Of a DNA stretch of 64,000 nucleotides, positions 26,377 through 40,117 are shown piece after piece. The position numbers were made by a program, and so were the translations under genes. The stretch spans positions 186,001 through 250,000 of the forward strand of contig NZ_JBCEXH010000004.1 in NCBI RefSeq assembly GCF_038751955.1, given 5' to 3'. Source of the stretch: Methanocalculus natronophilus. GTDB lineage: Archaea > Halobacteriota > Methanomicrobia > Methanomicrobiales > Methanocorpusculaceae. Positions within the stretch are counted from its first letter, which is position 1; each line of letters begins with the position of its first letter. The notes under the pieces were generated by a model. That model was not told where the DNA came from. It ran no database searches and saw only the letters and a list, made by a program, of their open reading frames with translations.

Positions 26377-26451
26377 GGGGTAGTAGGGTAGCCTGGTCCA
26401 TCCTAGAGCGTTTGGGACGCTTTGACCGCAGTTCGAATCTGCGCTACCCCA
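26377..26451 (+). tRNA. tRNA-Pro (anticodon UGG)
   Basis: Acceptor stem GGGGTAG/CTACCCC is fully paired. Anticodon stem GAGCG/CGCTT-region encloses TTTGGGA, giving UGG. T arm GCAG-TTCGAAT-CTGC. Discriminator A; CCA not encoded. It ends only 2 nt before the ATG of nth. Confidence 0.95.
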
Positions 26452-36821: not shown

Positions 36822-38012
36822 TTAGAAGTCCGTCATGATACGGAACTGATCGATCTCTTCCTGGTTGATCTCTGCTAAGAATTCTTCTGCTGCGTTCTGG
36901 ATATTCTTGCTTGCGGTGATGGCACGGCCGACAACAATGATGTCTGCACCTGATTCAAGGGCTTTCTTAACTACATTCACCCGTATGCCGCCAGCTGTTG
37001 CTACCAGCACCTTCCCGCCTGCAGCCTTCCTGATTGCGGGGATGTCGCCCCAGGAATAGTCTGATCCCTCGGCATCGATTGCCCTGTGCATCTCAACGAT
37101 GTGGGGGAGGGCGTTTGCCTGTGCAAGTGACTTGACCAGGTCAACCGGGCTCTTGACATTGAGCATATCGATGATCGCATAGATTCCGGTTTTCCGGGCC
37201 TCTTTGACGGCTTTCTCAATGGTTGAGACTGGTGCAAGCCCTGAGATGACGACTGCGTCTGCTGAAGCGTTTGCACACATCCGTGTCTCGAGGTTTCCGG
37301 TATCGAGTGTCTTGAGATCGGCGATGATGAAGGAGTTTGGCCTGATCTTTCGGATCTCGCTGATGACCTGGAGGCCGAACTGCTTGATGAGCGGCGTGCC
37401 CGCCTCAATGATCAGGTGGTCGTTTGCGGGGAGTTCTGTTAAGACCCGTTCAACCTGTTTCATATCAACAAGATCCAGTGCAACCTGGAGATATGGCGGG
37501 TTCCAGAGACGCTGAACCTTGAATCCCATAACAGCGTGTGCTGCCCGGTCTTTCTCATGGAGGATCGTCTTCTCGTCAGGGAACTGTTCAAATGCCCTTG
37601 AGAGCGAGAGTTTCATTGCGCCGTAATTGAACCGGTAGATCTTATTGTAGTCTTTTGCATCCGGCGCAAGGTAGACACTGGCGATGATGACGATATCATC
37701 GATATTCATACCGGCAAAGAGCCCCTCTTCCAGGCTGTCGGCAACTGCTTTTGCGACTGCCGCCTGAACTGGTCCAAACATCTCGTTTACCTGTTCTGTC
37801 CGTTTCAGCGTCACTTTCGGAATGATGACGGTTGCGGGTTTTGTCAGGAGATTTGGTCGGATCACAGCCAGAAGAGGCGTGTGTCCTGCCGAGAGCTGGG
37901 ATAGTGCATTGGCAAATGCGGTTCCTACAGGCCCGTTCTTATCTCCTACCAGAAGATCGATGTGCGCAAGTTCTGCGCCATCTCCAACTAATGCTTCACC
38001 TATTGCATACAT
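36822..38012 (-). CDS. Bifunctional formaldehyde-activating enzyme/hexulose-6-phosphate synthase
   Basis: 396 residues, a Fae-Hps fusion. Residues 1-165: Fae domain (GDGAELAHIDLLVGDKNGPVGTAFANAL with the catalytic histidine; it joins formaldehyde to H4MPT). Residues about 170-396: HPS domain, an orotidine-decarboxylase-like barrel (LQVALDLVDMKQVERVL, IADLKTLDTGNLETRM, AQVNALPHIVEMHRAID, VATAGGIRVN, VVGRAIT). In methanogens HPS works backwards to make ribulose 5-phosphate, releasing formaldehyde that Fae captures. Confidence 0.95.
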   Translation of the reverse strand: MYAIGEALVGDGAELAHIDLLVGDKNGPVGTAFANALSQLSAGHTPLLAVIRPNLLTKPATVIIPKVTLKRTEQVNEMFGPVQAAVAKAVADSLEEGLFAGMNIDDIVIIASVYLAPDAKDYNKIYRFNYGAMKLSLSRAFEQFPDEKTILHEKDRAAHAVMGFKVQRLWNPPYLQVALDLVDMKQVERVLTELPANDHLIIEAGTPLIKQFGLQVISEIRKIRPNSFIIADLKTLDTGNLETRMCANASADAVVISGLAPVSTIEKAVKEARKTGIYAIIDMLNVKSPVDLVKSLAQANALPHIVEMHRAIDAEGSDYSWGDIPAIRKAAGGKVLVATAGGIRVNVVKKALESGADIIVVGRAITASKNIQNAAEEFLAEINQEEIDQFRIMTDF

Positions 38013-38143: not shown

Positions 38144-38321
38144 TGGGGTCGGTGAGATTTGAACTCACGATCGACGGGTCTCTCCGACAGGCGTGAGAAG
38201 CGGATAATTGTGCATCAGCGCTCCAACGGGTCATCATCTTAATCAAATCAGCAGACCCGATTGTTCATCATACGCCAAGACCGCTGGAGCCCGTCGCCAT
38301 ACCGGACTAGGCCACGACCCC
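38144..38321 (-). tRNA. tRNA-Trp (anticodon CCA) with 104-nt intron
   Basis: Exon 1 is 38321-38284 and exon 2 38179-38144. The acceptor GGGGTCG/CGACCCC pairs fully; the T arm is GTGAG-TTCAAAT-CTCAC; the anticodon stem ACGGG/CCCGT encloses CTCCAGA, giving CCA. The intron sits at the canonical 37/38 position. Discriminator A; CCA not encoded. Confidence 0.93.
38180..38283 (-). ncRNA. Intron-encoded box C/D guide RNA for tRNA-Trp positions 34 and 39
   Basis: Reading the minus strand, the intron holds, in order, box C (ATGATGA), D' (CTGA), C' (GATGATGA) and D (CTGA). The guide before D' (CGGGTCTG) is complementary to CAGACCCG of mature tRNA-Trp; the fifth base upstream of D' pairs with C39. The guide before D (TTGGAGCG) pairs with GCTCCAG-region bases, and its fifth base faces C34. 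Known in euryarchaea such as Haloferax; both targets were derived here from the sequence. Confidence 0.85.
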
Positions 38322-38416: not shown

Positions 38417-40117
38417 ATGGTGGTTGGCAGTTATGCATGCGGTGTCTCGGAGATACCGCTGATGGGTGAGACGATTGGTGATATGCTCAATCGTATCGCA
38501 GCGAAATATCCGGATACCGAAGCTCTTGTTTCTGTACACCAGGGAATACGGTATACCTACCGGGAATTTCTTGAAGAGGTGAACCGCTTTGCCCGCGGGC
38601 TGATGTCGCTTGGGGTTGAGCGCGGTGACCGTGTCGCAATCTGGGCTCTGAATTATGCTGAATGGGTCATTATCCAGTTTGCCACAGCAAAAATCGGGGC
38701 TATCATGGTGAATATCAATCCTGCATACCGGACTTATGAGCTTGAGTTTGCCCTGAGGCAGGCCGAGGTCCAGACCCTGATTCTGCAGGATTCATTTAAG
38801 ACATCCGATTATGTCGGCATGTTCTACGAGGCATGTCCCGAGGCGCTAGAGTCACGGCCCGGAAAGATCAAAGCCGATTCATTTCCTTTCCTCAAACATG
38901 TCATCTTCATGGGTGAAGAGAAGAAGAGCGGGATGTTTACCTGGAATGAGATTTGCGAGAAGGCTGGCGAGGTATCATCAGCTGAGCTCACAGAACGGGA
39001 GGCTGTTTTGGAGTTTGATGATCCAATCAATATCCAGTATACGTCCGGAACAACCGGGTTTCCAAAAGGGGTTGTCCTCTCCCACCACAGTATCATGAAT
39101 AACGGGTTTATCATCGGCGAGGGGATGCGGTTTACCGAAAAAGACCGGCTCTGTATTCCGGTTCCGTTCTATCACTGTTTTGGGATGGTGCTCTCAAACC
39201 TTGCCTGTGTAACCCATGGGTCGACGATGGTCCTCCCCTCCCCTGTCTTCAATGCAGGTGCGGTGCTCCAGGCGATCCAGGATGAGCGCTGTACAGCTGT
39301 TCATGGTGTTCCAACAATGTTCATCGCAGAACTGTCGCATCCTGATTTTGACTCTTTTTCACTTGATACGCTCAGGACCGGGATCATGGCGGGATCTCCC
39401 TGCCCGATAGAAGTGATGAAGGAGGTGAATACCCGGATGCATATGTCCGAGATTGTCATCGTCTATGGCCAGACCGAGACGGCACCCGGGGTGACGATGT
39501 CGACAGTGACGGATCCCCTTGAACGGCGGGTATCTACTGTCGGGCGTGTGATGCCGCATACCGAGCTGAAGATCATTGATCCCAATACCCGGCGGCTTGT
39601 GCCACGGGGAGAGCCGGGCGAGATCTGTGCCCGCGGATACATGGTGATGAAGTGCTACTACAACAATCCAAGCGCTACCCATAACACCATTGATCCAAAT
39701 GGATGGAACCATACCGGCGATCTCGGTGTCATGGATGAGGAAGGATATTTCCGGATTGTCGGGAGGCTGAAAGAGATGGTGATCAGGGGTGGCGAGAATA
39801 TCTATCCCCGCGAGATCGAGGAGTACCTGCATAACCATCCGGCGATAGCGGATGTCTATGTGATCGGGGTTCCTGATATCAGGTATGGCGAGGAGCTGAT
39901 GGCCTGGGTGAAAGTTGAGGATGGCGCTACCCTGACCGAGGAGGAGATCCGTTCGTTCTGCAAAGGCCGGATCGCCCACTTCAAAATACCCCGCTACTAT
40001 ATGTTCGTCGATTCGTTCCCAATGACCATCTCTGGCAAGATCCAGAAGTTCAAGATGCGTGAGATCGCAATTAAAGAGCTCGGTCTTGAGGATGCCGAGA
40101 GCGTTGAGACTGCCTGA
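38417..40117 (+). CDS. AMP-binding acyl-CoA synthetase
   Basis: 566 residues. Activates a carboxylic acid with ATP to acyl-AMP then acyl-CoA. P-loop motif YTSGTTGFPKGVVLSH near residue 213; VPFYHCFGM; YGQTETAPGVTMS; GWNHTGDLGVMDEEGYFRIVGRLKEMVIRGGENIYPREIEE (hinge and A8); and the final Lys region PMTISGKIQKFKMRE. Reads like medium/long-chain acyl-CoA synthetases; the acid is not determinable. In methanogens these serve lipid or acid scavenging; no other fatty-acid genes are near. ATG/GTG 38417 is the annotated start; a later one (38462) is possible. Confidence 0.9.
   Translation: MVVGSYACGVSEIPLMGETIGDMLNRIAAKYPDTEALVSVHQGIRYTYREFLEEVNRFARGLMSLGVERGDRVAIWALNYAEWVIIQFATAKIGAIMVNINPAYRTYELEFALRQAEVQTLILQDSFKTSDYVGMFYEACPEALESRPGKIKADSFPFLKHVIFMGEEKKSGMFTWNEICEKAGEVSSAELTEREAVLEFDDPINIQYTSGTTGFPKGVVLSHHSIMNNGFIIGEGMRFTEKDRLCIPVPFYHCFGMVLSNLACVTHGSTMVLPSPVFNAGAVLQAIQDERCTAVHGVPTMFIAELSHPDFDSFSLDTLRTGIMAGSPCPIEVMKEVNTRMHMSEIVIVYGQTETAPGVTMSTVTDPLERRVSTVGRVMPHTELKIIDPNTRRLVPRGEPGEICARGYMVMKCYYNNPSATHNTIDPNGWNHTGDLGVMDEEGYFRIVGRLKEMVIRGGENIYPREIEEYLHNHPAIADVYVIGVPDIRYGEELMAWVKVEDGATLTEEEIRSFCKGRIAHFKIPRYYMFVDSFPMTISGKIQKFKMREIAIKELGLEDAESVETA

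Follow-up and report, generated by a model that had tools for sequence, protein, structure and literature searches.

The tRNA-Trp gene in the stretch of Methanocalculus natronophilus DNA that we analyzed (64,000 nucleotides, hereafter the window) carries, within its intron, a box C/D guide RNA that belongs to the known sR3 family. We regard this intron with high confidence as the Methanocalculus form of sR3, whose two guides would direct fibrillarin to C34 and C39 of the precursor of its own host tRNA. The anatomy of the intron, the register of its guides, their conservation and covariation, and the presence of the protein genes are established here by the analyses that follow. The features of the locus are as follows.

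38144-38321, minus strand: tRNA-Trp(CCA) gene (Rfam tRNA model, 49.6 bits, cut-off 29)
38284..38321, minus strand: exon 1, positions 1-37, with C34 at 38287 (Rfam tRNA match)
38180..38283, minus strand: intron of 104 nt at the canonical position 37/38, carrying the box C/D guide RNA (delimited by splice-site pairing)
38213..38275, minus strand: sR3 box C/D guide RNA core (Rfam RF01133, 55.9 bits, gathering cut-off 41)
38265..38271, minus strand: box C, AUGAUGA
38252..38259, minus strand: D' guide CGGGUCUG, the fifth base upstream of D' being a G that faces C39
38248..38251, minus strand: box D', CUGA
38231..38237, minus strand: box C', AUGAUGA
38220..38229, minus strand: D guide CCGUUGGAGC, the fifth base upstream of D being a G that faces C34
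38215..38218, minus strand: box D, CUGA
38180..38185, minus strand: intron 3' end GGAGAG, in which GGAG pairs with C32-C35 and AG is the 3' bulge before A38
38144..38179, minus strand: exon 2, positions 38-73, with C39 at 38178 (Rfam tRNA match)

The gene is recognized by the Rfam tRNA model and was not called in an ARAGORN run. Its splice site is a regular bulge-helix-bulge, with a CUCC (C32-C35)/GGAG helix and the bulges AG^C and AG^A on either side, and it lies at 37/38 of tRNA-Trp, which is the siting of sR3. TATA-like sequences, TTTATATTG and TATTTAAAT, start 17 and 40 bases upstream of the gene on the tRNA strand. The neighboring genes encode a fused formaldehyde-activating enzyme/HUMPS-family protein of the Fae-Hps type (window 36822-38012, minus strand) and a protein of the AMP-binding acyl-CoA synthetase type (window 38417-40117, plus strand). 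Elsewhere in the window (26377-26451, plus strand), ARAGORN called a tRNA-Pro(TGG) that scores below the Rfam tRNA cut-off and whose sequence resembles an ordinary tRNA.

The guide RNA core scores above the gathering cut-off of the sR3 model, and all four boxes match the consensus in the order C, D', C', D. As proposed in the initial annotation, the guides sit beside D' and D, and the fifth bases upstream of these boxes face C39 and C34, respectively, so that both positions obey the +5 rule in duplexes of 7-10 bp. Recomputing the pairs of the D' guide gave the numbers originally reported, 8 bp with the spliced tRNA (C35-G42) and 7 bp with the precursor (the AG of the intron plus A38-G42). The D guide shows an asymmetry in favor of the precursor that the annotation did not mention: its duplex with the spliced tRNA has 7 bp, whereas that with the precursor has 10 bp, running from G31 to intron base 3. 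We estimated what chance would produce by shuffling the intron 20,000 times with its dinucleotide composition preserved, counting as guides only duplexes of at least 7 bp in register. The C-D'-C'-D order arose twice, a C34 guide 45 times, and a C39 guide 25 times, while both guides together were found in 0 of the 20,000 shuffles. The anatomy, the shuffles, and the sR3 match support the original claim of a complete intronic box C/D guide aimed at positions 34 and 39.

We determined how widespread this family is. The Rfam model detected sR3 in 130 of the 135 near-complete class genomes and in 200 of the 296 genomes from the phylum, and a search with the tRNA-Trp exon pattern added haloarchaea that the sR3 model misses. 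One class genome without a match (G121, L112) has an assembly gap inside the intron. G147 and eight other genomes gave no match to a 14-base exon–intron pattern, a result with which loss, divergence, and missing sequence are all compatible. An intron from the same order as the window (L106, G100:C66, the sole genome of its genus) is 96 nt long with an intact splice-site motif, and a search of it for D boxes and guides found none; it thus appears to be a natural case of guide loss with retention of the intron. Two further introns depart from the pattern in their guides: in L104 (G043), the position-39 guide gains a base ahead of D' (GGGUCUUUCUGA) and the +5 register moves off C39, and in L115 one guide base is lost. 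Several Methanoregula-type introns (L025, L107, L109-L111, L113, and L114) have hairpin-rich D'-C' insertions of roughly 50-110 nt, with boxes and guides intact. The long Rfam matches (104-112 nt) in some of these introns were considered as extra guides and rejected, since they correspond to these spacer hairpins. One Methanoregula metagenome-assembled genome (L111, G120:C66) has a 3.5-kb contig with a pair of sR3-type matches separated by about 1.1 kb, which may reflect either a second copy of tRNA-Trp or an artifact of assembly.

The same genome encodes the proteins of a box C/D RNP: L7Ae, a Nop-domain protein (Nop5) whose gene overlaps the start of the fibrillarin gene, and fibrillarin directly downstream. 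It also encodes RtcB and, in a 378-aa frame, a splicing endonuclease that has two PF01974 domains. From these elements, we infer RNP assembly, methylation, its order, and its trans action in Methanocalculus. L7Ae would bind the kink-turns of C/D and C'/D' and be joined by Nop5 and fibrillarin, and the two guides would set fibrillarin on C34 and C39, yielding Cm34 and probably Cm39. With one guide reaching from G31 to intron base 3 and the other from the last two intron bases to G42, both would jointly invade the whole bulge-helix-bulge. Methylation and splicing would be in competition, and methylation should come first: because the guides would cover the entire splice-site helix, the RNP should keep the endonuclease from cutting until methylation is complete. 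The endonuclease and RtcB would then excise the intron and presumably circularize it. That the intron is instead kept for splicing or for another RNA function, its guide-like features being mere remnants, seems to us very improbable. In its favor, the guide-less intron of L106 persists with an intact bulge-helix-bulge, so that an intron can outlast its guides, and Haloferax survives loss of its intron, its viability being unaffected under standard conditions (PMC7714728). However, nearly all relatives conserve the boxes and the guides, with covariation at the target bases, while spacers and flanks drift.

This covariation, assessed in 162 introns of which 150 are distinct, bears on which of the two guides is functional. 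Base 39 is a C in the window, as annotated (position 38178). Across the 150 distinct introns, base 39 and the guide base facing it pair as C-G in the sampled methanogens and Archaeoglobus-like loci and as U-A or U-G in haloarchaea, with a single mismatch, in the degenerate L106. Base 41 and its guide base pair as C-G or A-U, intron base 1 and its guide base likewise as C-G or A-U, and the last intron base and its guide base as G-C or U-A. Haloarchaeal loci were added to obtain variation at base 39; within the order there was none, the 39-43 stem being fixed as CCCGU in the introns examined at that level. Because the changes follow a few deep splits, they represent a small number of events. We rejected the idea that C39 is a novelty, since most of the sampled introns combine C39 with guide G, among them the majority of the methanogen and Archaeoglobus-type ones, and "Cm34 and Um39 (or Cm39)" is already given in a review (PMC6313347). 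For tRNA-Trp of Pyrococcus furiosus, C32, C34, and C39 are predicted targets; of the predictions listed, only Cm34, Am38, and m22Gm26 were observed (in some tRNAs), while all others, among them C39, went undetected (PMC7668247). In the tRNA-Trp of the window, we therefore consider Cm34 very likely and Cm39 likely but less sure, because of this P. furiosus result. The same result would fit a scenario in which only the C34 guide works, the position-39 guide being a conserved helper for opening either the anticodon stem or the helix at the splice site, with C39 rarely or never methylated. The register break in L104 and the base loss in L115, which suggest that selection on the position-39 guide may be laxer, also lean this way. 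We nevertheless hold this scenario to be unlikely, since the base facing position 39 covaries phylum-wide with one mismatch in 150 distinct introns, and methylation of U39 is an established feature of Haloferax (PMC2584109 and PMC11408192).

The same comparison discriminates between the precursor and the spliced tRNA as the target. Among the distinct C39 introns, the D' guide base facing C35, which makes the eighth pair with the spliced tRNA, is G (59 introns), A (33), C (25), or U (7); this pair is not conserved and varies freely. By contrast, nucleotide 3 of the D' guide, which faces the last intron base in the precursor and G37 or A37 once the tRNA is spliced, can pair with both in 117 introns, with the precursor only in 30, with the spliced tRNA only in 1, and with neither in 1. 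The 30 precursor-only introns include 1) haloarchaea in which the intron ends in U, the guide has A, and G37 is retained, and 2) four introns from the order of the window that have A37 (L006, L009, L016, and L019), in which guide C is kept opposite an intron-end G. For the D guide, 147 of the 149 distinct introns have bases 9-11 paired with intron bases 1-3 at all three positions, and these guide bases usually do not pair with mature bases 38-40. Because the D' guide base follows the intron end and the D guide follows intron bases 1-3, the precursor, and not the spliced tRNA, is the partner under selection. The initial annotation had described the AG at the intron end as a mimic of A36-G37. 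This is true of the window's sequence but is not the rule, since in relatives the guide follows the intron base; the AG is better read as the 3' bulge of the splice site than as a mimic needed by the guide. That the spliced tRNA is the main substrate of the guides, once the intron has been released, would accord with the one pair that the D' guide gains here upon splicing and with the occurrence of excised Haloferax tRNA introns as circular RNAs (PMC7714728). We give it hardly any credence, and we rejected the preference for spliced tRNA that the 8-bp count might suggest, since the extra pair is unconserved, nucleotide 3 tracks the intron, and the D guide fits intron bases 1-3 in all but two distinct introns. 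A precursor target concurs with the published statement that both methylations must come before splicing (PMC2584109). The covariation between guide and intron end shows that the unspliced precursor has been selected as the target throughout the phylum.

Many relatives have a hairpin in the D'-C' spacer. Its loop is GACG in 30 introns (L057 and L117-L146) that come from eight family-level groups, none of them in the order of the window. This tetraloop is present in 28 of 28 distinct sequences of the methanogen-type hairpin, in which the closing pair is C-G, G-C, or U-A, indicating a covarying stem, and the three pairs adjacent to the loop are always kept. Haloarchaea (L058-L086 and L192-L241) have a hairpin at the same site with a 7-nt loop, CUGAUCA, found in 62 of 64 distinct introns by an automatic count, with a closing A-U, G-C, or C-G pair. 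L203 has this loop too, and the sole real exception, which reading the listed rows by eye confirms, is CUGGCCC in one genus (G157 and G192), where GGCC is also self-complementary. CUGAUCA contains the 6-nt palindrome UGAUCA. Kissing dimers are known from viral RNAs: gammaretroviral GACG tetraloops kiss through two base pairs, and HIV-1 has kissing dimers made by loops with six-base palindromes (PMC7357161 and PMC5874298). Two lineages thus carry loops of known dimerizing types at the same site of a trans-acting RNA. We put forward, as a tentative idea that is probably wrong, that the tRNA-Trp intron guide may be an RNA homodimer in much of the phylum, held by a self-complementary kissing loop between D' and C'. 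If so, kissing of two precursors would explain the trans action of the guide, and Methanocalculus and the rest of its order would be the exception, no D'-C' hairpin having been found in the spacer of the window's intron (UUUGAUUAAG). CUGA and UGAU also resemble box D and box C, the CUGGCCC exception is one event, and a GACG kissing interaction by itself is weak. A literature search, whose scope lay outside the primary intron papers, returned no mention of dimer-type loops in tRNA-Trp introns. We discarded the possibility that either loop is a third guide for the 3' anticodon strand of the tRNA, since the complementarity spans only 4-5 nt and by our own estimate would arise by chance in a few percent of cases. 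Natural test cases are provided by the species with A37, by U39 versus C39, by the guide-less G100 intron, and by the conserved dimer-type loop.

A self-guiding tRNA-Trp intron is already known: the arrangement was described in 2000-2001, is in Rfam, and is ordinary for this group (further literature on the guide system includes PMC4090602). The Pyrococcus pre-tRNA-Trp intron guide, named sR50 in one review, has guides for the anticodon arm, as in the window (PMC7994747); it differs in that C39 methylation went undetected in P. furiosus, and its sequence likeness was judged through the Rfam model alone. The intron guide of Haloferax volcanii has the same architecture and the same two target positions as ours. 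The Cm34 and Um39 precedent invoked by the initial annotation is borne out by two sources, which report that the intron guides methylation of C34 and U39 sequentially, with in vivo and in vitro evidence, and that the intron-encoded RNP works in trans on another pre-tRNA (PMC2584109 and PMC11408192). Haloarchaea have U39 with guide A or G, an intron-end AU with guide AU, D' boxes CCGA, CUGA, or CAGA, and the hairpin with the CUGAUCA loop, whereas the window has C39 with guide G, an intron-end AG, and no hairpin. Another close counterpart is sR3 of Archaeoglobus fulgidus (RF01133), which lies within the tRNA-Trp intron and forms, in vitro, an RNP active as an RNA-guided methyltransferase (PMC4117494). 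It shares the host tRNA, the intron position, and the boxes, and its guides, GGGUCUG for C39 and GUUGGAGC for C34, are nearly identical to those of the window. Compared with the Archaeoglobus-like loci (L147-L166, 61-63 nt), the 104-nt intron of the window is longer; its D'-C' spacer measures 10 nt, and its 3' flank extends farther past box D. With this locus, the textbook example of an intron modifying its host tRNA is extended to one further species.
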